Part shown: piece after piece, positions 15,308 through 61,709 of the stretch | How positions within the stretch are numbered: position 1 is the stretch's first letter | Layout of the letters: each line of letters begins with the position of its first letter | DNA from: an uncultured Bacteroidales bacterium | Lineage (GTDB): Bacteria > Bacteroidota > Bacteroidia > Bacteroidales > P3 | Reading direction: 5' to 3' | Length of the DNA stretch: 64,000 nucleotides | Assembly: GCA_900317955.1 (NCBI GenBank) | Contig: ONIP01000017.1 | Location: 1-64,000 of the forward strand | Made by a program: the position numbers and the translations under genes | The notes under the pieces: model-generated | Database searches by the model: none | What the model saw: only the letters and a program-made list of their open reading frames with translations | What the model was told of the DNA's origin: nothing

Positions 15308-15310
15308 GAT

Positions 15311-16114: not shown

Positions 16115-16198
16115 GTCTTTATTATTATATTTTCGTTTTTGAGGATTGTGGTTTGTTTGGCTGGAGGGGCGACGATGTGGCACCGTATAGCCAGTTGC

Positions 16199-17083: not shown

Positions 17084-17174
17084 TATATGTTTTCGTTGTT
17101 ATATCTGCCACTCGACAGACTAACGTTCCGTCGGTGTGGCAGAAAGGGTTGATAGTTTTTTGTTTGTTAGTTCA

Positions 17175-17921: not shown

Positions 17922-18045
17922 GTTCTGTGTGTCTTTAAAATAGTTAATAACACTTTCTGCATTATGTTACTGGGTGCTGAAACGCGACCCAAGTTAAAAT
18001 AACATAACGCGCAAATACTTGTTTTATTGCCTGACTTCAAAAAAA

Positions 18046-18471
18046 TCATGCTTTGTCTTTGTCCACCAACACAAACGACAGTTTGCCTTTGCAGGCCACT
18101 TTGTCGTCCACGTAAGCCGTAGCATCGATGAAGAAGATAAGGCCTTTGCGGGCAGTGATGTGGGCTTTGACAGTGATGGTGTCACCAGGACGGACGGGTT
18201 GGCGGAAACGCACATCGTTCAGTCCACTGTATAGGGTGAGGCGGTTCTTTAGTTCTTCGAGTACCAGAATGGCTGACGACTGCCCCATGATTTCGCATAA
18301 TATCACACCGGGCACAATAGGATTGCCGGGGAAATGTCCTTGCAGGAAAAATTCGTCACCGCGTACGTGGTAATGAGACACGGCGGTGTCGCCCTGCATT
18401 TCCATGTCGTCCACAAGCAGCATGGGTTCGCGGTGGGGCAGAAAATTCTTAATTTCTTCTCTTGTCATCAT
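18046..18471 (-). CDS. fabZ: 3-hydroxyacyl-ACP dehydratase, FabZ-type
   Basis: 141 residues. The hot-dog fold signatures are FLPHREPMLLVDDM, GHFPGNPIVPGVILCEIMGQ and TVKAHITARKGLIFF. The His and Glu in these two motifs are the catalytic pair. It dehydrates 3-hydroxyacyl-ACP to the trans-2-enoyl form. Two adjacent ATG codons could start it (18469 or 18466). It is placed between fabG and fabF in the cluster, 98 bp from fabF; that gap holds hairpins at 18489-18506 and 18537-18560. Confidence 0.93.
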   Translation of the reverse strand: MMTREEIKNFLPHREPMLLVDDMEMQGDTAVSHYHVRGDEFFLQGHFPGNPIVPGVILCEIMGQSSAILVLEELKNRLTLYSGLNDVRFRQPVRPGDTITVKAHITARKGLIFFIDATAYVDDKVACKGKLSFVLVDKDKA

Positions 18472-18569
18472 AATTTTGAACTTTTAATAGCGGAGTATTC
18501 TCCGCTGGTGCCCAGTAGGAGGGCAGGTTATAATATGGGGCGGACACGGAGGCTCGCCCCTTAGTGTTT

Positions 18570-36000: not shown

Positions 36001-38229
36001 GTAGCCCGTCTGTGCCACGGCATAGATGGTGGCGTTGTGGTTGCTACAGGTGGTCTGCTGTGTCACCGTGGCGCTGCCCATCACCTCGTTGTTGCTCTGC
36101 ACCATCAGGCGGTAAGGCGGAGCCTCCACGATATTGGGGAAGTTCTCCCAGTAGTCGGTGATATAGTAGTTCAGCACCGCGCCGCAAGGCACGCTGACGG
36201 TCACCAAGCTGTCCACCGCTGCAAAGGTATGGGCGTGGATGGTCGGTGGTGTGCTGCCCTTCATCTCAATCTCCGTGATATTGCCAACGCCGCTATAGGC
36301 GTAGTCGCCGATATGTGTGATAGAGGCCGGGAAGGTCAGCTTGCCGTTGATGTCCCCACAGCCGTCGAACGCCCTTGTCCCGATAGTGGTAAGGCTGTTG
36401 GGCAGTTCCGGTTTAATCAATCGGATGCACCCGCCGAAAGCGCTGTCCCCAATAGAGGTAATGCCCTCTCCCAGCGAGACATTGTTCAGCCGGAAGCATC
36501 CCCTGAACGCCCCGCTGCCAAGAGTCTGCACACTGTCACCTAATGTTACAGACACTAAGCGGTCGCAGTTGGCATATGCATTGCTGCCGATACTTTGGGA
36601 ATTAGCATTAACAGTAAGCAAACTATCGCAGTCAGCAAAGGCTCTAGTCCCTATACTTTGGGCATTCGTGTTGACTGATAGCAGATTGTCGCAGTCAAAG
36701 AAAGCACTGTCCCCAATCATTTGTACACTATCACCCAGTATCAGTTGTGACAATCTGTCGCAGTCGGCAAAAGCTGATTGACCGATGTTTCTGGCATTTA
36801 TAGATATTGAAGTAATGCTATCACGGTTGGCAAAAGCACTATCGCCGATAATCTGCACACTATCACCTAATATCACCTGTGACAACCTGTCACAGCCAGC
36901 GAAGGCAAATTTCCCGATGTTTCTAGCATTGATAGATATGGATATGATTCTAACACAATTATGAAAGGCAGAGTCTCCAATATATCGTGCGTTGGTATGT
37001 ATTGAAGATAAACTACCACAACTTTCAAATGCCATGTTTCCAATACTGTCACCACCAACAAATTCCTGAAGGTTGATGCAGTCATTGAATGCTTTTGCCA
37101 TGATAATTGAGTTGTCAGGGACAGTAACAGATTGAATATTATAGCATCTTGAAAACGCTGATTGACCAATTGTTTTTACACTATCCCCAATATTTAGGCT
37201 ATCAACATTAGAACATCCATAAAAAGCCCCATTCCCTATAAAATGAGCATTAATATCAACCTTTTGCAAATTGTCACAAATAGCAAAAGCAAAATTACCA
37301 ATATGATTTGTTTCTGTCAATATGAGTGTGGACAGACTATCAACATTATAGAAAGCATAATTTCCTATATGGTAAGCATTAGTAAGTATTTTGGCTATTC
37401 TACTACAATTTTGGAATGCACTATCCCCGATACTATCACAGCCAGTAATTTCTCTAATATTATTACAACCATAAAAAGCACGACTGCCTATCTTTGTCAT
37501 CTCTGGAAGATATATGGACTGAATATTCGAACAGCCAGAAAATGCTCCAGAACCAATTGATAATAACCCATTACCGAAATGAACACTGTCAATACTAATC
37601 ATATTTACAAAAGCTCCGTCAGAAATATTTCTCACAGAGTCTCCAAAAACAAGTGTATTAATTGGGCAATACCTAATGGCAGATAAATTACTAGGGATTG
37701 TCCTAGTATTGAAATAAACATAATGCAATGCACATCCGCTGAACACGCTCCAATTATCCATTAACGGACAATTTTCACAAAAAATAAGACTATCCAAACC
37801 CAGGCAATCTTCAAATGCATACGCTCCAATTTCCATAACGCTATTTGGAATAATCACTTTAGTTAACCCTGTATTACGAAAGGCACAGTAACCAATAGAT
37901 GTTACTCGAAACACACTATCTCCGTTAGTAACACTATCTGGGATACATAGTATTCCAGATGGCTCAGGGAAGCAACTAACCAAACGGTAATAAGTATATG
38001 GATGGCTCCAAATACAATACGCGCTGAGCAAATAGGTTGGTCCATAAAATCCTGGGTCATTTGATTGATACGTTCTTGGATAATTACCAGGATATGTAAT
38101 CGAAACTGTTGAATCACTTGTAATATTATAATATAAAGTCTGTCCCGTGCTGCAAACAGCAGAGAAATCATATGCGTATATTTGACTAATTATCGCTAAA
38201 TAGCAAACAACAGCTAATAACTTTTTCAT
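33028..38229 (-). CDS. Large surface protein: BspA-type leucine-rich repeats, 14 InlB B-repeats, T9SS-like C-terminal signal
   Basis: 1733 residues from ATG. Signal peptide MKKLLAVVCYLAIISQIYA; then from about 85 to 640 BspA/LRR_5 repeats (units like GDSVQTIGDSAFANCDRL); then 14 units of a Listeria/Bacteroides InlB B-repeat, each with YGYHFVQWNDGNTQNPRTV and FTAQF, between about 650 and 1640. The end, from about 1665, reads KVYAEHGHIVVEG..VQIYDLTGRR..LPTGVYIVRIDN..KRVVV, the pattern of a type A T9SS sorting domain. It is probably secreted by T9SS and attached to the surface, where such repeats serve adhesion to host or other cells. It lies between the two ATPase genes, with a short gap to the hypothetical protein at 38235. 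Confidence 0.88.
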   Translation of the reverse strand: MKKLLAVVCYLAIISQIYAYDFSAVCSTGQTLYYNITSDSTVSITYPGNYPRTYQSNDPGFYGPTYLLSAYCIWSHPYTYYRLVSCFPEPSGILCIPDSVTNGDSVFRVTSIGYCAFRNTGLTKVIIPNSVMEIGAYAFEDCLGLDSLIFCENCPLMDNWSVFSGCALHYVYFNTRTIPSNLSAIRYCPINTLVFGDSVRNISDGAFVNMISIDSVHFGNGLLSIGSGAFSGCSNIQSIYLPEMTKIGSRAFYGCNNIREITGCDSIGDSAFQNCSRIAKILTNAYHIGNYAFYNVDSLSTLILTETNHIGNFAFAICDNLQKVDINAHFIGNGAFYGCSNVDSLNIGDSVKTIGQSAFSRCYNIQSVTVPDNSIIMAKAFNDCINLQEFVGGDSIGNMAFESCGSLSSIHTNARYIGDSAFHNCVRIISISINARNIGKFAFAGCDRLSQVILGDSVQIIGDSAFANRDSITSISINARNIGQSAFADCDRLSQLILGDSVQMIGDSAFFDCDNLLSVNTNAQSIGTRAFADCDSLLTVNANSQSIGSNAYANCDRLVSVTLGDSVQTLGSGAFRGCFRLNNVSLGEGITSIGDSAFGGCIRLIKPELPNSLTTIGTRAFDGCGDINGKLTFPASITHIGDYAYSGVGNITEIEMKGSTPPTIHAHTFAAVDSLVTVSVPCGAVLNYYITDYWENFPNIVEAPPYRLMVQSNNEVMGSATVTQQTTCSNHNATIYAVAQTGYHFLQWNDGITANPRSIPMTQDSTFTAIFVVNNSYITVHANDSTMGSVGGTGLYGYNAPVTLTATPYSGYHFLRWSDGNTQNPRYLAAVRDSSFTAIFVSNVSTITVANANPDMGNVGGSGVYYYQNLVSLTATANYGYHFVQWNDGNTQNPRTILVSQDSAFTAFFALNTYSIVATSNSTTMGSVSGGGQYTYLHEMSMTATPAYGYHFVQWNDGVTDNPRTLTVTRDSAFTAQFAANSYTLTVAPNDATMGSAYGAGSYNYNTTATLTAVPNYGYHFTQWSDAVTDNPRTVTVLNNATYTAQFEINSYIITVQSSNPAIGTTSGSGSYNYLTPVNITALPNAGYHFTQWSDGNTSNPRLISVTANATYSAQFAINSYAVGVTSNNSTMGYVSGSGTYNHNSTATLTATPYYGYHFVQWQDGNTQNPRTVVVTDSAQYTAQFDYNSYLVTALSSNVTLGTATGGGSYNYLSQVALTAVPAPHHHFSMWNDSIEDNPRTITVTRDTTLTAHFAIDRHTIGVNTSNATQGTATGSSTVDYNTAVWISATPNYGYHFSQWNDGNSSNPRRVVVSQDTVFTASFAPNQYTATCMANDNSRGSVASAGGSYNYLTSVTFTAVPNAHYHFLRWSNGSTDNPITFTLTQDTALTAIFVGLTANVDDITMGTATHTKTANLVEIVTATPNYGYHFVQWQDGNTQNPRTVTLTQDTTMTAHFAVNSYHVTLGSNDSTLGSVQGSGDYDYLSQVTISATAAQHCHFVQWSDGNTTNPRLLTLTCDTVFTALFERDQQYQIVVTANDSTRGSVAGGGQYYLGEAVAIAATANEHYYFEQWSDGVTSNPRVVTVTGDATYTAVFEPVMYTLTVAANDYAMGQVAGSGSYAYGSTVTIEARAFGGYRFVGWDDGVQDGQRTVTVTADATYTAQFEANVGIEDVEGETYKVYAEHGHIVVEGVETKRVQIYDLTGRRHSTAEQLPTGVYIVRIDNRITKRVVVM

Positions 38230-49621: not shown

Positions 49622-50617
49622 TCAGATGAAGAAAAGGCTGACGCCCGCAACGCTGATGACGGCGCCGACAATTTCGCGCGGGGTGACACGCTGATGGAAA
49701 AGCCAGGCGGCCGGGGCAATGATGAGTATGGGCGTGAGGGCGAAGAGCGTCTGGGCGATGCCGGTGGAGGTGTACATGGTGGCAAGGAGCGACATGCTAA
49801 CTCCCACAAAGGGGCCGAAGATGGTGGCTCCGAAGACGCACCACATGGCTTTGCGGTCGCTAACGGCATGGCGCAACTTTTCGACGGCGTCTTTGTTGAA
49901 AAGGAAGAGCAGCAGGGTGAAGCCTGCAAGCCCCATGGCGGCACGTATCATGGTGGAGGCAAAGGGGACGCTGATGTAGAGGGGCATCGGAATTAGGGCG
50001 TCGGCCAACGGGGCGTGGAGGTCGAGACCTTCGGCCAAGAGGGCGGCATTGTAGTGCTCAAGTCCTATTTTGCTCAGCACCAACCCAAAGCCTTGGCATA
50101 TTCCAGCCATACTGGCGTAGGCAATTCCTTTTTTGGGGAGGCTGAGCTTGAGATGGGGTGTGTGGTCGGCGGAACCTGCCACGGGGTCGCGTTTGGAGAG
50201 GATGGACATGCCTATGCCCGTAAGGGTGACACACATGCCCAGAATGGCCAGTGAACTCATCTGCTCGCCTATAAGGAGACGTCCCATGATGGCTGCGGTG
50301 GGGGCGGAGAGGGTCATAAAAAGCTGGCCGAAGCGCGAGCCTATATAGATGTAGCCCTGCATGAGGCAGTAGTCGCCTATCACATAGCCCACCACGCCCG
50401 ACAGGAGGAGCCAGAGCCAAGTCGGCCCGTCGGCAAAACGAGGCCACGGCACCCCCATGACAAGCCAAAGTGTGAGGACAAGCAGAGTGAGGGACATGAC
50501 CATGCGCACCACATTGAGCGGCAGGGAGCCCATGCGTTTGGACGCCACCTCGGCAAAAAGGGCGGTGACAGTCCACGAGAGGGCCACAAAGAGAGATATG
50601 ATTTCGCCTATAAACAA
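49622..50617 (-). CDS. EamA/DMT-family transporter
   Basis: 331 residues with ten membrane segments in two EamA halves: MFIGEIISLFVALSWTVTALF...YVIGDYCLMQGYIY, GRLLIGEQMSSLAILGMCVTLTGI, then ALTPILIIAPAAWLFHQRVTPREIVGAVISVAGV. The start is unusual: the only initiator in the frame is the TTG at 50615-50617, directly after an in-frame stop; there is no ATG before residue 29. It is thus either a TTG start or a frame shortened by mutation. Family exports metabolites such as amino acids. It lies downstream of the DUF2589 operon but is set off by the hairpin at 50639-50669. Confidence 0.82.
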   Translation of the reverse strand: MFIGEIISLFVALSWTVTALFAEVASKRMGSLPLNVVRMVMSLTLLVLTLWLVMGVPWPRFADGPTWLWLLLSGVVGYVIGDYCLMQGYIYIGSRFGQLFMTLSAPTAAIMGRLLIGEQMSSLAILGMCVTLTGIGMSILSKRDPVAGSADHTPHLKLSLPKKGIAYASMAGICQGFGLVLSKIGLEHYNAALLAEGLDLHAPLADALIPMPLYISVPFASTMIRAAMGLAGFTLLLFLFNKDAVEKLRHAVSDRKAMWCVFGATIFGPFVGVSMSLLATMYTSTGIAQTLFALTPILIIAPAAWLFHQRVTPREIVGAVISVAGVSLFFI

Positions 50618-50701: not shown

Positions 50702-51280
50702 CTACTCGTTTTTCTTAACCGATATAGCCTGATTGAGCATTTCCAACACTTTGGCGAGACCACCAGGCATAGACTCTTGGCGGGCTATAACGTTGATATC
50801 GATATTGGCCTCGATACTATAGGCGGAATGCTGGGTGGCTACCGAATCTTTCTTTGTTGATACGGAGCCTCTCATAACGGTTTTCTGTATTTGCGCCGAT
50901 TTCAGATAGCTACCAATTCCAAGGTACTTGGAATTAGTGCTGTCATAGGAACTTTCTCTGTCCGCATCAATAGCGTCTTCAGTATTGATACTTTTCAAGG
51001 CGGCCTTGAAACTAATATTCACCGTGTCGATGGAGATGAACGGTATCGGAACAATCGTGAGCAGCGGAACACTCAATACCACATCCTCTCCGTCACGTCT
51101 ATACTTGAAATCAACATTTATTACATGACCCGGATTCTGGGGGTCGAAACCCACTCGGTCGATGAAGTTAACCGATGAGACAGCCGCTTGTTCTTGTGCA
51201 TCAATACAAGCGGATAGAGGTCCTCCAATCATACGGTCGAAGGGCATTGACGACAGATCATTCACTAATTCGTTTGGCAT
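50702..51280 (-). CDS. DUF2589 family protein, copy 7 (last gene of operon)
   Basis: 192 residues from ATG. DUF2589 blocks in order: MIGGPLSACIDAQEQAAVSSVNFIDRV (A), VPLLTIVPIPFISIDTVNISFKA (B), SVSTKKDSVATQHSAYSIE (C) and MPGGLAKVLEMLNQAISV (D). No signal peptide or membrane segment, so cytosolic. This is the short form without an extra C-terminal domain. Function unknown. Last of nine leftward genes from the promoter at 58912-58941. Confidence 0.9.
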   Translation of the reverse strand: MPNELVNDLSSMPFDRMIGGPLSACIDAQEQAAVSSVNFIDRVGFDPQNPGHVINVDFKYRRDGEDVVLSVPLLTIVPIPFISIDTVNISFKAALKSINTEDAIDADRESSYDSTNSKYLGIGSYLKSAQIQKTVMRGSVSTKKDSVATQHSAYSIEANIDINVIARQESMPGGLAKVLEMLNQAISVKKNE

Positions 51281-51303
51281 AATTATATACTTTTATTTGA
51301 TTA

Positions 51304-52962
51304 TTAATTCTTATATTTTAAAAGAAGATTTCTGACTTTGGGAGAAAAATTATTTTCGCCACAGCGGGAGATAATAGCATTTGACAATGCTTCACACAGT
51401 TTGGTTCCAGACTTACTATTGTGGCGGGCTTCGTCCTTGCCACCCCAAATGTGGGTAAACGATGGATTATTGTCAGAAGGCGATGTCAAAAACGTACCCA
51501 CATTAATTCTTTTGAGTTTGGCACACATTCCAAAAATACGTTGCTCGGCAAATACCATCTGGGACACCATCTCCATTGGACGCTCCATGTTCCCCCGCAT
51601 AAAGTCTATGGCTTTGTCGGTATAGTATTCTAAGAAATTTCTGTCATTGAAATAAGTCAAGGCAGTGTTGTATGGATTCTGATTCCAATCCCAATTCGGA
51701 TCAGGTGTATAGCCCTTGCGTTTTTTCAGGAAACGATAATCTAAATAACAGGATTTCAATTGCTCGAGATTCTCCGAATGGTATGCCATTAGTTTTTGGC
51801 CTGCCACGATGTCGTGGATACAAGACCACACCAACAAGTCAGTGTCCATCATCACAAAAGGTTTGTTCTGTGCCTTGATTGCATAGAGCTTGCCTCCTGC
51901 CCAGAAAATATCGGCGGAAATGTCGTTGGGAATACTCTCGAGAACATCCACATCCACACCACCATCCCACAAATCCAATAGCCCCCATGAATCATAGAAA
52001 TTGTAACCGATATTATCCGTATACATCTTGATAGGTCCATTGTGTTTACGCCACAGGCATGCGGAAAGAATTGTCGAGAGTATTTCGAAATCGGCAATTT
52101 CATAGCTTTCCACAGAACTTCTCTCCATAGACGGCTTGGTCCAGTTCACATGCAGAGCCAATAGTCCCCTATCCGTTTGATAATCGGGAACCAGTGATTC
52201 GGGACTGCTCATATTCAGTCGGTTGAGGATAAAACTATCTATATCGTCCGACGTGGAACCCAAGCCGAGGACAGCCGATAACTCGGAATCAGAATACCCT
52301 AAAATGGAATCTTTAACATCCGTTGATTCATCTACTATATGACCTTTTTCGCTGTCAGACCCCGGATTGTCGTTGTCATTTTTCGTTTCATAATGGTCGT
52401 TCACGGCATCGATAATCTCATCGATTGACTTGTTTCCCGATACAGGAGGTTGTTCTCGAGGAATATCTTCCACCACCACACCTCCGTTCATCCAATCGAG
52501 CAAAGTGGCCAATCCTGCCGGCATGTCGACAGTCCCCGCGTCGATGTCTATGTGCATATTGGCTTCGCTTTTCGCCGTCTGCAATACCTCGCCTTCGTGT
52601 GTGCTGGAGTTGTTGACCTGCATTACAAACTGGTTAGAGTATTCATTATTCACTTTCACATTGGCGTCGAAGTCGATTTTTATACTCTCCAACTTGATAA
52701 AAGGCAGCGGAACTATGGTTATGAGCGGCACCGCAATGCGTTTCACCGATGACCCGTCCATAAAAGAGAAAACGACAGGAGCTTCGTGAGAAAGAACTTG
52801 CTGGACATAGTCCCACGCCGCTGTAGAGGCAGACTCCTGGGCATCGACACAAGCAGAAAGAATTTTTCCTATAAAAGTACCGAAGGGAATCCTGCCCAAG
52901 TCGTCAAAAGACTGGCCGAGGTCGTGGGCTTTCAAAGACTGTATGGTCGAGTTTTTAGTCAT
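51304..52962 (-). CDS. DUF2589 fused to a DUF6734/glycosyltransferase-A-like domain, copy 6
   Basis: 552 residues. Residues about 1-170 carry DUF2589 blocks (FIGKILSACVDAQESAST, AVPLITIVPLPFIKLESIKIDF, MPAGLATLLDWMNGG), followed by an acidic linker (170-260, Asp/Ser-rich). From about 270 the chain is of another kind: GLLALHVNWTKPS..., GPIKMYTDNIGYNF, WAGGKLYAIKAQNKPFVMMD TD (an Asp-x-Asp-like DTD metal motif), YNTALTYFNDRNFLEYY. This matches the look of DUF6734 / GT-A glycosyltransferases. I infer a sugar-transferring activity; no substrate can be named. Fusion of these two domains in one protein is unusual. It starts 179 bp after 53142's stop. Confidence 0.8.
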   Translation of the reverse strand: MTKNSTIQSLKAHDLGQSFDDLGRIPFGTFIGKILSACVDAQESASTAAWDYVQQVLSHEAPVVFSFMDGSSVKRIAVPLITIVPLPFIKLESIKIDFDANVKVNNEYSNQFVMQVNNSSTHEGEVLQTAKSEANMHIDIDAGTVDMPAGLATLLDWMNGGVVVEDIPREQPPVSGNKSIDEIIDAVNDHYETKNDNDNPGSDSEKGHIVDESTDVKDSILGYSDSELSAVLGLGSTSDDIDSFILNRLNMSSPESLVPDYQTDRGLLALHVNWTKPSMERSSVESYEIADFEILSTILSACLWRKHNGPIKMYTDNIGYNFYDSWGLLDLWDGGVDVDVLESIPNDISADIFWAGGKLYAIKAQNKPFVMMDTDLLVWSCIHDIVAGQKLMAYHSENLEQLKSCYLDYRFLKKRKGYTPDPNWDWNQNPYNTALTYFNDRNFLEYYTDKAIDFMRGNMERPMEMVSQMVFAEQRIFGMCAKLKRINVGTFLTSPSDNNPSFTHIWGGKDEARHNSKSGTKLCEALSNAIISRCGENNFSPKVRNLLLKYKN

Positions 52963-53014
52963 TATAAAGGGCCTTCAATTTTTCTTTTTTTCCAAATACA
53001 AACTCCACTGATTC

Positions 53015-53080
53015 GAACTCTTTAATTCGTAAATGTGTTAATACGTTAGTCAAAGTCTCACACATTAAAACATTCTTTCA
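53015..53080. repeat. 8-bp-unit repeat copy inside the DUF2589 operon
   Basis: ATTCGTAAATGTGTTAATACG, then GTTAGTCAAAGTCTCACAC, then ATTAAAACATT, between 51304 and 53142. Another copy lies at 53734-53780. Confidence 0.6.
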
Positions 53081-53141
53081 TACAAGTAATTTGTGTTATT
53101 CGTTCTTTTAGTGGTTGTTTAAATTAATATATATTATCATT

Positions 53142-53705
53142 TTAGTCTTGTGTGGACTGCTCGGTGCTGTTGTCTTCAGGCTCTATTTCCTTCTGTTGGA
53201 TAAACTGCTGCATGACCTGCAAAAGCTTGGCTACCCCCATGGGCATATCGGACGATGTAGCCACTACTTTAACATCCACTTTGATATCGTTTGAGTACTG
53301 CGTTTTACCCGTTTCCTGCTGCGAAGATGAGGTTCGTCCTGAGGCAGAATAATTGTCTGTCGACACCTTGGCCATCAGTTGCTGCCCGTCGGCCACCGAA
53401 ACATCGGCGGCAAAATGCAGATTCACATTATGGATTTGCAAAAATGGGATGGGCATTACCGACGCCAACGGAAGAGTGATGCGTTTGTCTCCATCCTCAG
53501 TCGAATAGCCAAACGAAACCGTTACGGTCTCGTAGGTTTCGGTCTCAGGATTATACTTGAAACACACGCGGTCCAAATAGTCTGTCGTGGCATAGGCCGC
53601 CTGCATCTGGGCATCGACACATGCCTGCAACGGAGCACCAAGAAGGGAGCCAAAGTCAGTGTGCTCCAGTGCATCAACCGATGTTTTCAAATCAAATTCG
53701 CCCAT
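53142..53705 (-). CDS. DUF2589 family protein, copy 5
   Basis: 187 residues from ATG. Block A: FGSLLGAPLQACVDAQMQAA; block B: LPLASVMPIPFLQIHNVNLHFAADVS; block C: QETGKTQYSNDIKV (the usual KKDS..S motif is absent); block D: MPMGVAKLLQVMQQFI. It is a divergent short member with no extra C-terminal domain and a Glu/Gln-rich end. Cytosolic. Part of the operon; it starts 87 bp before 53793's stop. Confidence 0.85.
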   Translation of the reverse strand: MGEFDLKTSVDALEHTDFGSLLGAPLQACVDAQMQAAYATTDYLDRVCFKYNPETETYETVTVSFGYSTEDGDKRITLPLASVMPIPFLQIHNVNLHFAADVSVADGQQLMAKVSTDNYSASGRTSSSQQETGKTQYSNDIKVDVKVVATSSDMPMGVAKLLQVMQQFIQQKEIEPEDNSTEQSTQD

Positions 53706-53733
53706 ATCCGTTTATTATCATTTTTTGAATTCG

Positions 53734-53780
53734 TTAGTCAGGTACTCACGCATTAACACGTTAACAAATTAACACATTCT
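53734..53780. repeat. 8-bp-unit repeat copy inside the DUF2589 operon
   Basis: AATTCGTTAGTCAGG, then TACTCACGCATTAACACGTT, then AACAAATTAACACATT, just upstream of 53142. Confidence 0.6.
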
Positions 53781-53792
53781 CAAACGCATGTC

Positions 53793-54011
53793 CTATCCAT
53801 TAAACTTACTTGCTTTCTCAAGGTTTTTCGAAGCAGTGTCCACTTCCTTAAGTATGTCCATTGCCTGCTTCGACTCTTCACGGTTGATTGACAATTTCAG
53901 TCCGCAATGGGGACACACCAAAGCCGAAGCATTGAGTAATTCGGAAATAGTGGTGGGTATAAATTGACCGCATTGTGGGCACTTTAGTCCTGGGGTTTGT
54001 TGTTGTGGCAT
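53793..54011 (-). CDS. Small zinc-ribbon protein
   Basis: 72 residues from ATG. Two CxxC pairs, CPQCGQF and CPHCGLK, separated by about 20 residues, indicate a zinc ribbon; the C-terminal third is a charged helix (AMDILKEVDTASKNLEKASKF). No signal peptide. It is embedded in the DUF2589 operon between copies 4 and 5 and could be a metal-binding adaptor or DNA/RNA binder. No known family recognised beyond the ribbon. Confidence 0.75.
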   Translation of the reverse strand: MPQQQTPGLKCPQCGQFIPTTISELLNASALVCPHCGLKLSINREESKQAMDILKEVDTASKNLEKASKFNG

Positions 54012-54049
54012 ATTTCAAAAGTATAAGTAGAGTTGTGTATATTTTTTTA

Positions 54050-54925
54050 TTAGTTTTTATCGTTATCTTTAGGAGTTGCTGCAACTTGCAGACTGTTTGC
54101 TGCGGACTGTAACAGGAGCTTGATGCCGTCCGGAAGTTCGGCCTGTTTCATTTTTACAACCACTTGCAGATTGGTCGTTGCCTTTGTTTCATCTTCGTCT
54201 TGTTGTGATACCATAAACGAAGAGTTGGACCCGATAACCGCGTCGGCTACAGTTTGAGCCTTGTACAGCAACTGCAACTGTTCCTGAGTAGTCAAATAGC
54301 TTGTGCTGCTGCCCGAACTGTATACCCTTATTTGACGATTTCCGAAACCCATTCTCACCTGGGTCTGGAGATAGTCTATGATATCGGGAATGGTACGTCT
54401 TCCGGTGGTTCGATAATAGTAATCCTTAATATAATCGACATACATCTGCTCCTCCGAATCAAGGGTTTCGGTCTTCTCTACCAGATTCACTGAGAGGGCG
54501 AGATCAAATGTTGCCTCCGTTACATGAAGCAACGGAAGAGGAATCATGGTGATTTGGGGGATTGACACCTCTTGGGTGCTTCCATCCGGGCTCCTCATCG
54601 TGAATTTTGCCATGGCCAGACTTCTCTCATCTTCCTCTTCGCCATACTCATCGGCAGTATTAGTGTTTGTAGGAGTTCCACCTTTCATCCCGGCAGTATT
54701 GTTGCCAATACTATCTATGGCATTGTTCAGCAGCAATTTGCTTCCAAAAGATCCACTCGAAGACTGCTCCTCTTCTGAAGTAGAGAAGCCATAGGCATAC
54801 TGCTTGATCATCTCGTAGGACTTTTTCGAAGCATTGGTGTCAGCCATCACGGCAGCTTCCATCAGCTCAGACAATGCATCGGATATGCCGTAGCTCTTTG
54901 ATTTCATTGAATTTTGATTGCCCAT
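54050..54925 (-). CDS. DUF2589-related divergent protein, copy 4
   Basis: 291 residues from ATG. Only part of the DUF2589 pattern is clear: EVSIPQITMIPLPLLHVTEATFDLALSVNL (block B) and LPDGIKLLLQSAANSLQ (block D); block C is missing. The N-terminal half is different from the others: Ser/Glu-rich low complexity and a helix starting SELMEAAVMADTNASKKS. I call it a divergent member on these two blocks. It lies 11 bp before 54937's stop. Confidence 0.72.
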   Translation of the reverse strand: MGNQNSMKSKSYGISDALSELMEAAVMADTNASKKSYEMIKQYAYGFSTSEEEQSSSGSFGSKLLLNNAIDSIGNNTAGMKGGTPTNTNTADEYGEEEDERSLAMAKFTMRSPDGSTQEVSIPQITMIPLPLLHVTEATFDLALSVNLVEKTETLDSEEQMYVDYIKDYYYRTTGRRTIPDIIDYLQTQVRMGFGNRQIRVYSSGSSTSYLTTQEQLQLLYKAQTVADAVIGSNSSFMVSQQDEDETKATTNLQVVVKMKQAELPDGIKLLLQSAANSLQVAATPKDNDKN

Positions 54926-54936
54926 GGATCTCTTTT

Positions 54937-55722
54937 TTACTTGTTGTCTTTAAGGTCAATTGCCTGTGTTGCCGGATTGATGGTGATTGTCATGGTATGG
55001 ACGCTCTCAGGGGGCAGTTGAGCCAGCTGCTCATCACCTATTTCAACCTTCAGCGAACCATACCGCTGAATACGGTGGAATGAATTGACTGTGCTTTCGC
55101 GAAGCACATCGTCCAACTCCTTCACCATCACCCTTTCAAAATCCTGATAGATAAAGTCTTTGAGCCCAGTGGCATCCTGTTGCACAAACAAGCCACGAAT
55201 ATCCTCATGGTCAAGCAAATACTCCACTGCGGCAGGTAGCAGAATCTTACGGATGCTTTCCTCCTTCATCTCGCCTTGATTGTCAAGAAGAGATTCTCGC
55301 TCCTCCGACAACAAAGCAAAAAAGCGACGGCGTATATGTTTCAGAAACTCCGTGTTGCTTGGAAGGGTGTCTACAAACGAGTAGTTTGTTTTGTAGTCGA
55401 CTGGCGAATGCTGTATGACGTTCACCATTGTCTTGATAAGCAGCTCTCCCATCTCGTTGCACACATAACGCAGAATTTTGTCCACGCCCTTCTCGTTCAC
55501 GTCCTTCTCTTCTTCAGAAACAATCCCGTCCACAATAGCATAGTTAAGCGAAAGGGATAGATTGCCTATCATAGCCGAGGGCATTTGCATGCCGGCCATA
55601 CTGCCGTCAGCAGCATAACGCTCGGAAAGCCTTGATGTGCGCATATTTGATTCGTGCTGTGCACGAACCACATCTGACAAAATTGTTCCCAGCAGATCTT
55701 TTAATGTCAATGTAGATGCCAT
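54937..55722 (-). CDS. Accessory protein of the DUF2589 operon, unrecognised
   Basis: 261 residues from ATG. Starts LTLKDLLGTILSDVVRAQHESNMRTSRLSERYA, a helix that recalls block A of the DUF2589 genes, and has IGNLSLSLNYAIVDGIV where they have VPLLTIVPIP. From residue 90 it is helical and charged, with a beta-type end (SVHTMTITINPATQAIDL). I cannot name the family; it may be a remote relative. It sits in mid-operon, 18 bp before 55741's stop. Confidence 0.6.
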   Translation of the reverse strand: MASTLTLKDLLGTILSDVVRAQHESNMRTSRLSERYAADGSMAGMQMPSAMIGNLSLSLNYAIVDGIVSEEEKDVNEKGVDKILRYVCNEMGELLIKTMVNVIQHSPVDYKTNYSFVDTLPSNTEFLKHIRRRFFALLSEERESLLDNQGEMKEESIRKILLPAAVEYLLDHEDIRGLFVQQDATGLKDFIYQDFERVMVKELDDVLRESTVNSFHRIQRYGSLKVEIGDEQLAQLPPESVHTMTITINPATQAIDLKDNK

Positions 55723-55740
55723 AATTCTATAGTAATTGAG

Positions 55741-57066
55741 TTATTTAGTTGCCTCTTTCTGCACGATGACTGCACTCTTCAGGTTTTCGGCTATAACCAT
55801 ATAGGGACCCGGTGCATTGAAAAGCAGCTGCACGCCGTCTCCCGTGTTAAGCACTGTCACCTTGGGGGCATCCTTCTCCGTTCCCTCATATTTGCAAGAA
55901 ATCTTGTCCGGTGCAGAGTTCCCCTCGCCGTCAAGATAGGTTGCATTTATCACTGCATAGCCATCCGCCAACTGCACAAGACTTGATGAGACATTAAGCT
56001 CTCCTTTAGGATTATACACACTGATGGCGTCGTTGAGAATCTGGAGCATTTTGGAGATGCCGCCGGGCAAATTATCGTCCGAAACCACCGTGATGCCGAT
56101 ATCCATACTCGATTCTACACTGTATTTCGAATCCTGGGTGGCTTTGGAGTCCTTCTTGGAAGAGAACGAAGCCCCGAAAGTGGGTTCCGCCCTGACGGAA
56201 TTTTTCACTGCGTCAGCCACAGCGGTACTGCTGGGTTTCTGAGCAGCGGGAGCGGGAGTTGTTGCAGTGTCTGTACTGTTGGTCTGGCCACCTGTATTTT
56301 CACCTTTCTGTTGGGGCTTGGCCGCATTGGGGTCAGTGGCGTTTTCTTCACCGGCCTTTTTCTTCGACGGATTCTGTTCGTCCTTTATGGCTGCGCCATA
56401 GGAAAACGTGCTCTCAGCACCAGTAGTGAGGTTAATAGAGGTATCGGCAGTAAACTTAATCTTGAAATCATAAGTCATCTCCTTGATACGCATTGCCGTG
56501 ATTGGGACAAGCGTGAGCAAGGGAATCGTCATTTTGGCCATCTTCCCATTTTTGAAGAACGAGAAGGTAACCACAGCCACTGTACCGTCTTTTACTCCAA
56601 TGTCATTGATGCAGCCAAGCATTTTCTTGGCCGCATTATAGTGAGCCTCCACTGCGGCATTGATGGGTGCGCCAATCAGCTTAGACATATCAAGAGATTC
56701 CATTTGATGGATTGATTCCTCGCCCAGCTTGGACGGTGCACTGACCTCTTTAAGCGTCAGGGTTACATCCTGCATCTTTAAGGCGTCACCTACTGTTTGG
56801 ACTCCAGGCATGATTTCTTTGGTAGCATTTACAACTTCTGTAACGTTACTTGTTACAGACTGTGTATTGTCATCACTGGGAGTGTGAGTATCTGCATTCG
56901 GAGTATCAGTGGAATCGATATTCTCTTGTGGCTCGGTAGAATCGCTATCACTGTCAGGATTCTTGGCAGGTGTTGGGTCAACTGGATTGGAAGCTTCGGG
57001 TTCAACTTTTGGGGACTGCAGAGTGTCACCATCAGGTTGATTATTGTTTGTATTATTTTTTTCCAT
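55741..57066 (-). CDS. DUF2589 family protein with long acidic N-terminus and C-terminal beta domain, copy 3
   Basis: 441 residues from the ATG at 57064-57066 (MEKNNTNNNQ). The first 90 residues are low-complexity and acidic/Pro-rich. Block A: MSKLIGAPINAAVEAHYNAAKKM; block B: IPLLTLVPITAMRIKEMTYDF; block C: SSKKDSKATQDSKYSVE; block D: LPGGISKMLQILNDAISV. An extra beta-type domain of about 85 residues closes the protein (GDGVQLLFNAPGPYMVIAEN). Cytosolic. Two like it are copies 1 and 2. Confidence 0.88.
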   Translation of the reverse strand: MEKNNTNNNQPDGDTLQSPKVEPEASNPVDPTPAKNPDSDSDSTEPQENIDSTDTPNADTHTPSDDNTQSVTSNVTEVVNATKEIMPGVQTVGDALKMQDVTLTLKEVSAPSKLGEESIHQMESLDMSKLIGAPINAAVEAHYNAAKKMLGCINDIGVKDGTVAVVTFSFFKNGKMAKMTIPLLTLVPITAMRIKEMTYDFKIKFTADTSINLTTGAESTFSYGAAIKDEQNPSKKKAGEENATDPNAAKPQQKGENTGGQTNSTDTATTPAPAAQKPSSTAVADAVKNSVRAEPTFGASFSSKKDSKATQDSKYSVESSMDIGITVVSDDNLPGGISKMLQILNDAISVYNPKGELNVSSSLVQLADGYAVINATYLDGEGNSAPDKISCKYEGTEKDAPKVTVLNTGDGVQLLFNAPGPYMVIAENLKSAVIVQKEATK

Positions 57067-57094
57067 AATAATTGCTATTACAGGATTATACAAA

Positions 57095-57973
57095 TCATAT
57101 CACTTGCACTTGAGCCGAACGTTCTCCAGCCTTGATAAGATACTGTCCGGCAGTACTAAAGGTACAAATAATGCCAGGTTCGTCTTTTGTCATCTGATAA
57201 TCATCATTGCCGGCGGGAGTGGGGTTCTTGTTCCCATCATTGTATTTTTGTATTTCAATCTTTTTGAGGTCGTTGCAGAAATAGCCGTCCTCATCCTTGT
57301 AGGTGATATAAACGCCCTTCATGCCATTGCTTTCGCTGTTTATATTAACCACATGCGATGACACGTGAAGCTCTCCACCCTTTTCAACGGTGTCAATGGA
57401 TTCATTGAGCATTTCGAGCACCTTGGCCATGCCCGCAGGCATATCGTCCTGACCGGCTTTTACGGCAACATCCATTGTGTACTCGACCGAGTATTTTGAA
57501 TCGCGCGTGGAAGTGGAGTCCTTCTTGCTTGACACCCCCACATTCATCTCTATCGAACCCTTTGCGATAAGGAAGTTGCATGAGGCCTTCGTGTTCATGT
57601 TAAAGTCCACATTCAGGCTCTCGTGCTGCTGTGTGGATGTAGAGGCGGCGGCAGAGATGTTGGCCTTGAAGGCTATGTCGATATCGCGGATGGCGAGGTA
57701 CGGAATGGGAACGATCGTGAGCAACGGCACATTGAGCGTAGCGTCGCGGCCGTTTTTGCGGTATAGAAAACTAACGTATGTGGCTTTCTTCTCGCCATCC
57801 TCACCCTCAGTCAAACCCACTTCCCTGATAAATTTCCAAGTGGCCTGGGCTGCATTTGTCTGTGCCTCGACACAGGCCTGCAGCGGACCTCCTATAATAG
57901 TGCCAAACGGCAGTGCCTGTAGGGCAGACATTGCCACTGTCGACGGGGTTGTGTCTATATTGTTCTTTGCCAT
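57095..57973 (-). CDS. DUF2589 family protein with C-terminal beta domain, copy 2
   Basis: 292 residues from ATG. Block A: IIGGPLQACVEAQTNAAQAT; block B: VPLLTIVPIPYLAIRDIDIAFKA; block C: SSKKDSTSTRDSKYSVE; block D: MPAGMAKVLEMLNESIDT. The extra C-terminal domain has GIICTFSTAGQYLIKAGER. Cytosolic; paired with copy 1 and 3. No catalytic motif is evident. Confidence 0.9.
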   Translation of the reverse strand: MAKNNIDTTPSTVAMSALQALPFGTIIGGPLQACVEAQTNAAQATWKFIREVGLTEGEDGEKKATYVSFLYRKNGRDATLNVPLLTIVPIPYLAIRDIDIAFKANISAAASTSTQQHESLNVDFNMNTKASCNFLIAKGSIEMNVGVSSKKDSTSTRDSKYSVEYTMDVAVKAGQDDMPAGMAKVLEMLNESIDTVEKGGELHVSSHVVNINSESNGMKGVYITYKDEDGYFCNDLKKIEIQKYNDGNKNPTPAGNDDYQMTKDEPGIICTFSTAGQYLIKAGERSAQVQVI

Positions 57974-58017
57974 GGATTATTCCCTTTCATTCGGTTGATT
58001 GATGATTCGTTTTTTGA

Positions 58018-58866
58018 CTAAGAATTCGAGTTAAACTCGAGCTTTCTTTCTATCAACACTGTGCCGCCCTCTTTGGCAAGAGCCTTTACGGTGGCCTCCT
58101 TGGTTGATTTTTCAAAGGTGAACTTCACCCCTTCGCCAAGGTATGAATTGTCTTTGGTTCCTGAGCAGTCGATACTCTCGGGTGCAAACTCCCCAAAGGG
58201 ATTCTTGTAGGTGATAATAATATAGATTTTATCTTCACCCTGCTGATAAGGACCGTCAATCGTAAGGTCGCCCTTTTCGGGCACCACGTCGATGGCCTCG
58301 CTCAGCATGCCCAGTATCTTGGCCATGCCAGAAGGCATAGACTCCTGTCCAGCCTGGACATGTACATCCATCGTGGCCTCGATGCTAAAACGGGAATCTT
58401 GTGTGGACTTTGAGTCTCTTTTCGATGAAATACTGGTCTTCATCTTGGAGGTCTTACGCTTTGTAAGCCATCCACCGCCTTTCTTGCTCGACGTTTCTTT
58501 TTCAAAATTCGACTCGACAGAGGTGCCGTCTTCAAGACTTGACTCTTCGGTTCCATTGATGGCAACCTTGAAATCAATCTCAATATTGTTGATGGCGATA
58601 TAAGGTATCGGGACAATCGTCAGCAAGGGGACGCTGATATTGGCTCGCCGACCGTTCTGAAGATATGAGAACACAACATACACAGCTTCTTTTGTGTTGT
58701 TCTCACCTTGCTGCAGGCCGACTGCTTCGATGAAATTCACTGTGGACACTGCGGCTTCAGCCTGTGCTTTGATGCACGCTGACAAAGGTCCACCGATAAT
58801 ACTTTCAAACGGTATACCGGTCAAGGCTCCTACCGTTTTGTTGGCTACACTATCTTCCGGAGGCAT
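58018..58866 (-). CDS. DUF2589 family protein with C-terminal beta domain, copy 1 (first gene of the operon)
   Basis: 282 residues from ATG. Block A: IIGGPLSACIKAQAEAAVST; block B: VPLLTIVPIPYIAINNIEIDFKV; block C: SSKRDSKSTQDSRFSIE; block D: MPSGMAKILGMLSEAIDV; extra C-terminal beta domain (KFTFEKSTKEATVKAL). No signal peptide. First of nine leftward genes after the strong promoter at 58912-58941. The proteins look like a set of diverged paralogues, suggesting a multi-subunit assembly; this is an inference. Confidence 0.9.
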   Translation of the reverse strand: MPPEDSVANKTVGALTGIPFESIIGGPLSACIKAQAEAAVSTVNFIEAVGLQQGENNTKEAVYVVFSYLQNGRRANISVPLLTIVPIPYIAINNIEIDFKVAINGTEESSLEDGTSVESNFEKETSSKKGGGWLTKRKTSKMKTSISSKRDSKSTQDSRFSIEATMDVHVQAGQESMPSGMAKILGMLSEAIDVVPEKGDLTIDGPYQQGEDKIYIIITYKNPFGEFAPESIDCSGTKDNSYLGEGVKFTFEKSTKEATVKALAKEGGTVLIERKLEFNSNS

Positions 58867-58911
58867 AACAGGAGTTTTTTGTGGTTAATAAATAAAGATT
58901 AAAATACGATG

Positions 58912-58941
58912 CAAATATAAGCAAAAAAAAACATAAAACAA
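58912..58941 (-). promoter_or_regulatory. Promoter of the DUF2589 operon
   Basis: -7 box TATATTTG (complement of 58912-58919) and -33 TTG (complement of 58939-58941), spacer 19 bp: one of the best promoter matches in the window. It lies in an A/T-rich tract (58905-58985) before a nine-gene operon of about 8.2 kb. Confidence 0.8.
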
Positions 58942-59067
58942 CTTTTTTTATTAAAAAAAATTAATAAAAACCACAAATACTTAATATCGAATAGGTTAAA
59001 AAATGTATCCGGAAGTTATAACAATTGTGTTTTCATTCATTTACATATCCGATTCTGATTTATTTTG

Positions 59068-59075
59068 TATATTTG
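59068..59075 (+). promoter_or_regulatory. -7 box of the DUF5686 gene
   Basis: TATATTTG on the plus strand; no clear -33. If used, transcription starts near 59082 and so the translational start must be later, agreeing with 59148. Confidence 0.55.
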
Positions 59076-59147
59076 CATCGCAATTTGTATTTGAATTCAA
59101 TTTATAGAAAGATTATTTACAAAACATTACATATAATCCTACCTTGT

Positions 59148-61709
59148 GTGCGGCAGTCAATTTGGCGCGGAGTAGCTTTGGCGCTGCTTGTTGCGGTAAT
59201 GGGTTCCACCGCATGGGGGCAGATGCGTTCTCCGATATCGGGCACGGTGTACGACCAGAATACGGGCGAGCCGTTGTCGTTTGTGCAGGTGGCCATTCCG
59301 GGCACACGATACGGGACGGTGACGGACATGGAGGGCCGTTTTGACCTGAGCGTGACGGCCGACGACACGGTGCTGAGTTTCCGGCTGGTGGGTTACCGGC
59401 CAAGGACAGTTGCGCTGAAAGGAAGTTCGTGGCGCCGCATGAAGGTGACCATGGAGCCCGAGGTGACCGTTTTGCAGGCGGTGAGCGTTACTGCCAAACG
59501 GGGCAAAGGCGACCGCTACCGCCGAAAGAACATCCCCGCCGTGGCGTTGGTGAAACGCGTGATAGACCACAAAGAGGAGAACCATGTGATGGCCAACGAA
59601 CAGTTCAGCCGCAGGGTGTTCGAGAAGTTGAACATGTGTATTGACCAGTTCCACCCCGATTTTGAAGGGAATGCTTTTTGGCGGCATTTTCAGTTTGTAG
59701 AGAAATATATTGACCGCGCACCGTTCGACAATGCCGAAATATTGCATTTCTCGATACACGAACGCATGCAGACTCAGAACTATAAGCACGGCGGGTTGCG
59801 TACACTGACCACGGCAAACCGCGCCGACGGTGTGGATGCCAACGTGACGCAGGAGGGTTTCGACGACGATCTCGACGCCCTGTTCCCAACCATTGACATT
59901 TTCGACAACGAGATAGCCCTGATGTCGATACGTTTTGTAAGTCCGCTCTCTTCCGTTCTGGCCAATGCTTATTACCATTATTATATCACCGACACAGTGA
60001 TGATAGACAGCCTGAAGTGCATAGAGCTTTCGTTTGTGCCGTCGAGCAAAGGGAATTTCGGCTTTGTGGGGTCGATGTACATTGTTGCCGACAGTACCTA
60101 TGCCGTGAAACGGTATAATCTCCGTGTGCCGGAAGCGGTGGATTTGAATTTTGTGCGCGACCTGAATGTGTTGCAGACGTTTGAACGCGACAGTGCGGGA
60201 CGCTATATGCCCATCCGAACCGACACTTACGGGCGGTTTTATGTGGGCAAACGATTGAGGCAAATCTATGCGCACAAGCTGCAACTGTACTATGACTATT
60301 CTTTTGACACCCTTATACCTCAGCCCGACAGTCTGTTTACGCCGATGTCGTCGTATGCCGAACTGCCCAACTCCCACCGAGTGTTCCGCAAAGAGTGGAA
60401 TGCCCGCCGCCCGATAGAGTTGACCCTGTCCGAGACATTTTTGGACAGTATGCGCTTTGAATTGATGCGCATTCCGTCGGTGAGATTCACCATCAAGACA
60501 ATCGAGACCCTGTTTATAGGCTACATCCCGACAAGTTCCTCGCGCGACTCAAGTCGGTTCGACCTCGGTTCCATTTACAATTTTGTGAGTCACAATGGCA
60601 CCGAAGGACTGAGGCTGAGGATGGGCGGCATGTCGACTGCGTGCCTCAACAAGCGCAATTTCGTCGACGGTTTTTTGGCATACGGATTTAGGGACAAGCA
60701 GTTTAAATTCAATCTGAATCTAATTCACACCTTTGCCGACAAGCGTCGGTTCCCCAAGGAGTACCCACAGGGATTTGTCTGTCTGCATGCCGGCTACGAC
60801 ATTGAGTCGCCCGGTCTTTCGTTCGACCGCTATGATAGGGATAATATCATGCAATGGACCGACAAGGCTGTGCCGGCCATGTATGTAGCCGATGTGCAGC
60901 TGAGGTTGCGCAAGCAATGGCCCAGTTTCATCGATATAGACACCTGGGTAGGGGCGCAGCACCTGCGTCCTACAGACCTGCTGAGTTATTACCGTATCAC
61001 TGACGTGGGCACGGAGCGGGTGGATGAGTTCTATTATGCACAGTGGGCGCTGAGCGTGGGCTTTTCGCCCAATGTGGCGACACGGAGCGGGCGCACTGGC
61101 GAGACTTCGCTGCTTAACCTGCTGGGCTCGGGTACTTCAATTACGCTGAGCCACGAGATGGGGTTGCTTGACGGGTTTTACTACAACCGCTCCACATTCA
61201 GCATTATCAGTAGGTTGTGGTCCGCCGCTTTCGGCTATCTCGACACGCGGGTGCACGGAGGAATAGTGTGGAGCCAGGTGCCGATGCCCAAGCTGTTTGT
61301 TCCCAACGGGAATATCAGCTATATGCTTTCGGAGAACGCGTTCAACACCATGGTGCCCATGGAATTCATGATGGACCGGTACGTGTCGCTCTATGCCACC
61401 TACCACATGAAAGGTCTGATCCTCAACCGTCTCCCGCTCATTAAACGTCTGAAATTGCGCGAGGTGCTGGGATTCAATATACTATATGGCGGCATGTCGG
61501 ACATGAACAATCCCGCCAACGGACACAAAGGGCTTTACCTGCTGCCCGCACAAACCGAATTCCTGACCGCCACACCGTATATGGAGTACAGCATTGGTAT
61601 AGAGAACATCCTGAAGTTGATACGCATAGACTATGTGCGACGTATTACATACCTAAAGGACGGAATTTCCCCCTGGGCGATAAAGATCTGCCTGCAATTC
61701 ACGATGTAG
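59148..61709 (+). CDS. DUF5686 family outer-membrane protein with carboxypeptidase-like regulatory domain
   Basis: Start chosen at the GTG at 59148 (853 residues). The frame is open from a TTG at 59025, but the -7 box at 59068 and the signal peptide (RQSIWRGVALALLVAVMGSTAWGQ) begin after it; no ATG is available before the signal peptide ends. Next a carboxypeptidase-regulatory-like domain (ISGTVYDQNTGEPLSFVQVAIPGT...SFRLVGY), then the DUF5686 region with KNIPAVALVKRVIDHKEEN and a long C-terminal outer-membrane beta-barrel ending IKICLQFTM. The family is found in Bacteroidota outer membranes, with no defined activity. The absence of an ATG is noteworthy. Confidence 0.85.
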   Translation: MRQSIWRGVALALLVAVMGSTAWGQMRSPISGTVYDQNTGEPLSFVQVAIPGTRYGTVTDMEGRFDLSVTADDTVLSFRLVGYRPRTVALKGSSWRRMKVTMEPEVTVLQAVSVTAKRGKGDRYRRKNIPAVALVKRVIDHKEENHVMANEQFSRRVFEKLNMCIDQFHPDFEGNAFWRHFQFVEKYIDRAPFDNAEILHFSIHERMQTQNYKHGGLRTLTTANRADGVDANVTQEGFDDDLDALFPTIDIFDNEIALMSIRFVSPLSSVLANAYYHYYITDTVMIDSLKCIELSFVPSSKGNFGFVGSMYIVADSTYAVKRYNLRVPEAVDLNFVRDLNVLQTFERDSAGRYMPIRTDTYGRFYVGKRLRQIYAHKLQLYYDYSFDTLIPQPDSLFTPMSSYAELPNSHRVFRKEWNARRPIELTLSETFLDSMRFELMRIPSVRFTIKTIETLFIGYIPTSSSRDSSRFDLGSIYNFVSHNGTEGLRLRMGGMSTACLNKRNFVDGFLAYGFRDKQFKFNLNLIHTFADKRRFPKEYPQGFVCLHAGYDIESPGLSFDRYDRDNIMQWTDKAVPAMYVADVQLRLRKQWPSFIDIDTWVGAQHLRPTDLLSYYRITDVGTERVDEFYYAQWALSVGFSPNVATRSGRTGETSLLNLLGSGTSITLSHEMGLLDGFYYNRSTFSIISRLWSAAFGYLDTRVHGGIVWSQVPMPKLFVPNGNISYMLSENAFNTMVPMEFMMDRYVSLYATYHMKGLILNRLPLIKRLKLREVLGFNILYGGMSDMNNPANGHKGLYLLPAQTEFLTATPYMEYSIGIENILKLIRIDYVRRITYLKDGISPWAIKICLQFTM

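Follow-up and report, generated by a model that had tools for sequence, protein, structure and literature searches.

A conserved accessory operon of position-specific DUF2589 paralogues and linked exchangeable enzymes in an uncultured Bacteroidales bacterium

We analyzed a 64,000-nucleotide stretch of DNA from an uncultured Bacteroidales bacterium (contig ONIP01000017.1; the window), which carries nine minus-strand open reading frames (ORFs) at positions 50702–58866, g1–g9, separated by intergenic gaps of 11–179 bp. These genes represent a conserved accessory multi-subunit operon, in which position-specific paralogues of the DUF2589 family are linked to exchangeable enzymes. Seven of the nine proteins pass the curated Pfam cut-off of PF11655 (DUF2589; 23 bits), with E-values ranging from 8e-28 to 1.7e-8; g4 and g6 do not pass it. 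A first-pass annotation of the DNA had proposed a closely spaced, one-strand operon of nine genes with seven DUF2589 paralogues, one zinc ribbon (g6), one unrecognized protein (g4) and one glycosyltransferase-like fusion (g8), and the ORF and Pfam analyses agree with it on all of these points. As that annotation had said, the PF11655 entry gives no function for the family. In the genome-wide search, the DUF2589 copies of the own genome (2.8 Mb, 98% complete) are exactly the seven copies of the operon. Tentatively, we read the products as a cytoplasmic hetero-oligomeric chassis, new in kind, which may carry exchangeable enzymes used against cell envelopes; we take this to be a serious possibility, short of a probable one. 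The earlier interpretation as a whole is partly supported. Beyond it, we add the compact core with its wider spread, the cell-wall hydrolases and LytTR regulators linked to it, and the empty site of sister species.

To collect related loci, named genomes were scanned; the best 80 of the 135 confirmed matches were kept, giving 75 loci, whose layouts come from mechanical gene calls and profiles made in scripts. The core order is DUF2589, g4, DUF2589 and zinc ribbon. At least two DUF2589 genes together with g4 and the zinc ribbon are present in 44 of the 75 loci; among the remaining ones, 7 are without the zinc ribbon, 7 are without g4, 1 is without both, and in 16 the gene calls gave one DUF2589 gene or none, some of these 16 being contig ends or GC-rich genomes where the ORF picker failed. 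Full-core carriers include Bacteroides fragilis, Parabacteroides, Segatella copri, Akkermansia, Dolichospermum, Anabaena and Crocosphaera, as well as SAR324, a planctomycete and Acetivibrio (the Acetivibrio record is marked contamination-unverified). Homologues of g6 occupy the same operon place in related loci; in 17 loci of the phylum, one helical-looking protein of ∼185 residues stands beside g4 in place of the zinc ribbon. The window belongs to the expanded type, defined by at least five DUF2589 genes and represented by 19 of the 75 loci. One of the loci (L070), from an uncultured Bacteroidetes bacterium, agrees with the window in all nine genes and in both flanking genes. When 393 genomes of the order were searched with the g4 profile, 7 gave matches, own included. 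Two of these matches (L206 and L207) have the gene layouts of the loci L128 and L092, respectively, which had already been collected, and they were not counted as new.

The relationships between the copies were analyzed with a tree that took in 125 DUF2589 domains of 29 loci. The copies group mainly by operon position; placing the position labels on the tree needs 28 changes, compared to 94.6 when the labels were shuffled. The A3 copies make up one side of a branch with a support of 95, and the nearest rows of g1 are A1 copies of other loci. The copies at the P positions sit on long branches and are sorted less clearly, with 3–4 changes for the larger P groups; the expanded-B copies are not joined with the compact-B ones in a single group. 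g5, the B copy of the window, fills only 12% of the tree columns, and its placement within the B group is weak. Judged from the tree, the DUF2589 copies are largely positional orthologues. Recent tandem duplication was ruled out by this position-wise grouping. The first-pass annotation had named recent duplicates with no conserved operon as the outcome that would refute it; the tree and the recurring core exclude that outcome. Its view of an undescribed system with paralogues as distinct parts is supported by the core order, which is kept across genera and phyla, and by the positional orthology. The N-terminal part of g4 is weakly similar to DUF2589 (hhalign probability 12, E 0.0025, 68 columns), which hints at a possible common ancestry of the two families.

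The seven paralogues had also been described as sharing four sequence blocks, A to D. Blocks A, B and D are recognizable in all seven, but only g1, g2 and g9 have them close to the quoted form; g3, g7 and g8 contain degenerate versions, and g5 the most degenerate ones. In the alignment, block C is clear in g1, g2, g3 and g9, but in g5, g7 and g8 it is either indistinct or missing. The DUF2589 domain of g3 has one long insert ahead of block C, and a larger spacing between blocks B and D is general in A3 copies. When the blocks were scored across the loci, 38 of 182 proteins could not be scored. The C-terminal extensions vary, as had been said: one tail of ∼100 residues is common to g1–g3 and their orthologues, g8 ends in DUF6734, and Big_1, or Big_2 plus DUF6734, follows the DUF2589 domain in other proteins. 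As the first-pass annotation proposed, the paralogues may be subunits of one assembly, with the varied ends as its putative specificity parts.

Some further variation was observed among the loci. Five cyanobacterial loci (L117, L123, L126, L130 and L132) contain two g4-family genes, one on each side of the DUF2589-B and zinc ribbon genes. Two DUF2589 arrays (L064 and L069) have a different small zinc-ribbon protein (67–68 residues) between the DUF2589 genes. GGGYTSAP-like glycine-rich repeats are located within the domain (L041 and L042) or in the tail (L123) of DUF2589 proteins. The DUF2589-g4-helical trio is followed in L042 by a 1398-residue ORF (2622–6818), whose look we take to be SpvB/Tc-type, and in L058 it lies near a 1649-residue ORF (2472–7421) that presumably resembles phage tail fibres. 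Downstream of the Acetivibrio core (L139, ∼15000–19700), repeated short ORF pieces look like a candidate clustered regularly interspaced short palindromic repeat (CRISPR) array.

The operon is accessory. Among 41 genomes (own, 24 congeners and 16 of the order), DUF2589 was found in the own genome only; in the phylum sample, it was found in 28 of 395 genomes, own included. The operon is flanked by one EamA transporter gene (49622–50617, minus strand) and one DUF5686/CarbopepD_reg_2 gene (59025–61709, plus strand). In four congeners (G017, G018, G021 and G437), these two genes stand side by side, without the operon between them; DNA homology to the four stops at 50616, and it resumes at 59022–59059 in three of them and at 59228 in G018. 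Gain or loss of the operon therefore happened en bloc. DUF2589 was not found in G017, G018 and G021; G437 lies outside that search. Among 31 genomes, 24 have an EamA match and 20 have a DUF5686 match; in the rest, the two genes are apart, on different contigs or not found. Gain or loss as a block at one chromosomal site, together with the patchy and accessory distribution, would also suit an anti-phage defence, with the complex as the infection sensor and the linked hydrolase or glycosyltransferase shutting down the infected cell; the exchangeable enzymes likewise resemble effector swapping. However, the PADLOC models gave no match except one weak match of g6 to PDC-M14A (2.2e-5), and no sensor domain was recognized by Pfam. 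We regard anti-phage defence as improbable.

Among the genes next to the related operons, we scanned 97 of the 108 listed downstream neighbours and 68 of the 75 listed upstream neighbours. Downstream, the scan found 17 PF11860 muramidases, 15 PG_binding_1 domains, 6 DUF6734, 4 papain-type peptidases and 1 pesticin-type lysozyme; upstream, it found 22 LytTR, 4 DUF3876, 2 patatin and 1 GH108. In the control, 97 of 196 eligible distant genes were scanned, and no hydrolase, LytTR or DUF6734 family is among the 25 families listed out of 139. Five hydrolase profiles gave 27 matches within 4 kb of an operon (509 kb of sequence) versus 1 match beyond (446 kb), a comparison that overstates independence, as genes close to the operons served as seeds for the profiles and the loci share ancestry. 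A hydrolase match within 4 kb is present in 27 of 74 loci, including 22 with a muramidase, 3 with an M15-linked lysozyme or chitinase, 1 with GH108 and 1 with a pesticin-type lysozyme, so that several unrelated families of phage-type enzymes are represented; the 'GH19-M15' profile also caught phage lysozyme plus M15 proteins (L130 and L132).

All 24 ORFs matching the muramidase profile are located within 3.2 kb of a DUF2589 operon, counting one that is PG_binding_1 only by Pfam (L055) and one contig-end fragment (L109). Pfam recognizes PF11860 in L134, L090, L127, L141, L117 (a cyanobacterium) and L037 (a deltaproteobacterial plasmid). It also confirms PF00959 phage lysozyme plus M15 in the Crocosphaera loci L130 and L132, GH19 plus M15 in L123, GH108 in L075, a pesticin-type lysozyme in L084 (Rhodospirillales) and VanY/M15 in L052 and L058; the last two are outside the set counted above. 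By N-terminal hydropathy, no export signal was seen in 23 of the 24 muramidase-profile matches (below 2.0), and the remaining one, in L094, is at the threshold (2.02). In many compact loci, the gene following the zinc ribbon encodes a member of one further family, with 21 members. Judged by eye, most of these products have a basic stretch at the start; 5 have a hydrophobic one, and in L091 and L140 the muramidase is surrounded by products of both forms.

For the chassis, we propose the following mode of action. Several DUF2589 subunits, g4 and the zinc ribbon would assemble into the predicted particle, with the DUF2589 domain serving as the docking part and the C-terminal Ig-like (immunoglobulin-like) tails facing outward as binding parts. 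Cargo may be loaded by fusion, as in g8, or by binding; in the window, the cargo would be the DUF6734 enzyme. LytTR regulators would switch on the compact operons, and the loaded particle might reach other cells through lysis of the producer or through a further release step.

The main rival is self-directed lysis or wall remodelling. Here, LytTR would control programmed lysis or remodelling of the wall, with the complex recruiting cell-wall hydrolases, and a glycosyltransferase in the case of the window, to the envelope of the producer itself. The phage-type hydrolases adjoining the core, the LytTR family in 22 of 68 upstream genes and the basic start of the product after the zinc ribbon, which could bind membranes, are all consistent with such a machine. 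However, the patchy spread (1 of 41 genomes and 28 of 395 in the phylum sample) is unlike that of housekeeping wall growth, most window-type operons show no hydrolase by the five profiles, and two genomes contain the toxin/immunity-like neighbours described below. In our judgment, the self-directed machine is rather unlikely.

Several observations weigh against the proposed chassis with envelope-directed cargo, in addition to the overstated independence of the hydrolase link. No hydrolase match within 4 kb was given by the five profiles in 47 of the 74 loci, some of which lie on short contigs; among the 19 expanded loci, only L075 (GH108) has such a hydrolase nearby. The window region has no match to any of the five profiles, and PF11860 was not found in the window genome, in a search in which no control matched. 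In several expanded loci, g4 is short or not found. The toxin-like neighbours were seen in two genomes, and on the contig of one of them (G595), g4 but no DUF2589 gene was seen beside these neighbours; among 395 genomes, a single one matched one such toxin-like protein, in the lysozyme part only. Finally, no immunity-like exported gene was seen in the window operon, as none of the nine proteins has a signal-like start.

The two genomes in question are G684 (locus L211), with two DUF2589 genes and one short g4, and G595 (L208, a 3.2-kb contig), with one short g4 alone. The proteins adjoining the short g4 share one common N-terminal part (29–36% identity over 112–148 residues) and differ in their C-termini, which are lambda-lysozyme-like or metalloprotease-like with HExxH-type motifs (HEFKH or HEFLGH); one further ORF with a partial shared N-terminus carries HELVH. 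The stand-alone lysozyme-like relative on L208 matches 1am7 and 3d3d at an E-value of 4e-7. These toxin-like proteins are followed by ORFs with signal-like N-termini (hydropathy 2.9–3.7), and the two ORFs that follow lysozyme-like domains, one in each genome, are homologous and 55% identical. Pfam found no confident domain in these sequences and gave nothing at all for most of them. By analogy, these modules would follow a putative toxin-immunity logic. In the window, there is no further minus-strand gene between g9 and the EamA gene; a cytosolic immunity gene may nevertheless be present.

Like polymorphic toxin-immunity systems, the operons combine one constant domain with different C-termini (in g8 and others), and the two loci just described have variable putative enzymes beside signal-bearing ORFs. 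Unlike those systems, the operon keeps several paralogous subunits as its chassis; no immunity gene was seen in the window, and no known trafficking domain was recognized. Contractile injection and type VI secretion systems may work alike, in that they are multi-subunit carriers with exchangeable wall-cutting cargo. Unlike them, the window genome has no match to TssC (PF17541) or Baseplate_J (PF04865). TssC was found in 1 of 10 carrier genomes (G348), in a search in which no named control matched; Baseplate_J was found in 3 of 10 (G348, G410 and G595), with 3 of 14 named controls matching. Judged from these two markers, the linked enzymes of 7 of the 10 carrier genomes, the window's included, are not accounted for by a known injector. 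A bolder reading than the proposed chassis is a self-contained particle or delivery apparatus of DUF2589, g4 and the zinc ribbon, unrelated to phage tails and type VI secretion, which would bring an interchangeable cargo of cell-wall hydrolases, glycosyltransferases and proteases into competitor cells. The positional paralogues would then be distinct rings or faces, the Ig-like tails would be the target-binding surface, and the range would take in Bacteroidetes, Akkermansia, cyanobacteria and other phyla. We hold this delivery apparatus to be doubtful.

Phage lysis cassettes are similar in that the operon-linked enzymes are homologous to phage endolysins and lysozymes; the one linked muramidase checked against PHROGs matched endolysins at an E-value of 7.7e-86. 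They differ in that the chassis proteins g2, g4, g8 and g9 match no phage family; no systematic search of the neighbourhoods was made for holins and phage structural genes. We rejected a phage origin of the core, as the PHROG scan was empty for these four proteins at an E-value of 0.01; the matches of g6 are weak and of zinc-ribbon type only, and g1, g3, g5 and g7 were outside the scan. In the first viral scan, made with g2 alone, none of 13 candidates was confirmed; the viral model A0A516MP19 aligns with g2 at an E-value of 2.4e-6 and 28% identity. As a separate observation, four related small phage proteins on viral contigs (L145–L148, ∼9750–10250) contain (K)VPLLTIVPIPYI, which is the DUF2589 block B, or a near form of it, and one second copy, VPALNIVPI. 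This likeness, which is confined to block B, could be chance or docking-motif mimicry; by our own estimate, an eight-residue pattern is expected to match by chance over the viral contigs, and we do not rely on it.

DUF6734 is the predicted enzyme of the window operon. We take this domain, which forms the C-terminus of g8, to be a putative GT-A-type glycosyltransferase. In 11 aligned fused and stand-alone DUF6734 sequences, the last Asp of the DTD motif is invariant, and the first Asp and the Thr are at least 90% conserved. Besides L071, L086 and the window, 12 of the 19 expanded loci contain the domain, either fused to DUF2589 or as a stand-alone protein. Because it is fused in some loci and adjacent in others, there is good evidence from gene arrangement that DUF6734 and DUF2589 function jointly. 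The frequency of DUF6734 in window-type operons (12 of 19) would also fit a metabolic role, with DUF2589 as the scaffold of the enzyme in a cytoplasmic complex that modifies or stores glycans for the cell itself, and one report has the DUF2589-related genes AF0414–AF0417 of Archaeoglobus fulgidus rising on lactate (PMC3949148). However, compact operons with the same core adjoin muramidases and other hydrolases instead, and we consider such a metabolic complex very unlikely. In the open-licence literature of PubMed Central, nothing was found on PF11655, DUF6734 or DUF3876 by name, and DUF2589 was found only in passing mention, in PMC3949148; among the papers listed for AF0414–AF0417, this was the one of relevance.

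All nine genes of the window operon are on the minus strand. g1 (58018–58866; 282 residues, PF11655 E 8.5e-24) consists of DUF2589 and the C-terminal tail of ∼100 residues and occupies position A1. g2 (57095–57973; 292 residues, position A2) ends in one Ig-like domain in the predicted model, spanning residues 198–292. g3 (55741–57066; 441 residues, position A3) contains a low-complexity N-terminus, DUF2589 and a C-terminal tail; its best start is the ATG at 57066, and its Pfam run (E 6.8e-12) was made without the first Met. g4 (54937–55722; 261 residues) belongs to no Pfam family and represents the conserved partner family, which is built of a helix, strands, a large helical insert and C-terminal strands. 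The divergent DUF2589 protein g5 (54050–54925; 291 residues, E 1.7e-8, position B) lies between g4 and the zinc ribbon g6 (53793–54011; 72 residues), which has two CxxC motifs and matches Zn_ribbon_3 with 27.4 bits (cut-off 27). g7 (53142–53705; 187 residues, E 3.1e-21) is at position P1; g8 (51304–52962; 552 residues, position P2) is the DUF2589-DUF6734 fusion, matching PF11655 and PF20508 at E-values of 3.7e-15 and 7e-17, respectively. g9 (50702–51280; 192 residues, E 6.2e-25, position P3) is DUF2589 alone and groups with A1-type copies in the tree.

By script scan, one candidate promoter (58912–58941, minus strand) precedes g1. It contains TATATTTG (58919 to 58912), which we take to be a Bacteroidetes-type -7 box, and TTG (58941 to 58939) 22 bp upstream. 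The single upstream promoter of the first-pass annotation corresponds to this one candidate box with its TTG; the scan also gave a second -7-like box, at 54023, without a TTG partner. No LytTR gene is present among the scanned flanking genes of the window. The products had been called cytosolic, and indeed none of the nine has a signal-like N-terminus; the maximal 12-residue hydropathy within the first 40 residues is 1.5, and exported-looking neighbours reach 2.6–3.7 by the same measure. Elsewhere in the window (33028–38229, minus strand), one protein of 1733 residues has BspA-type leucine-rich repeats and 14 InlB B-repeat stretches; judging from these repeats, it is likely a surface protein.

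Foldseek and VIA gave nothing firm as a known fold for the DUF2589 core or g4. The best match of the DUF2589 core in the Protein Data Bank (PDB) has an E-value of 0.012, with part of the core below 50 in predicted local distance difference test (pLDDT) score, and one search covered the Ig-like tail only; weak phage tail-tube rows in the structure searches are not significant. In PDB profile searches, nothing convincing was found for DUF2589 or DUF6734, and four matches at E-values of 0.24–0.8 were found for g4.

DUF2589 is a widespread family without an assigned function, and it can now be described by partner genes that are conserved with it, by subunits specific to operon positions and by a recurrent association with hydrolases. 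The linked wall-cutting enzymes have no visible exit from the cell; if the chassis carries them, it would explain how they leave or act. The DUF2589 operons of Bacteroidetes, Akkermansia and cyanobacteria would then encode carriers of a new kind, and the compact four-gene core with its muramidase makes the carrier idea directly testable.

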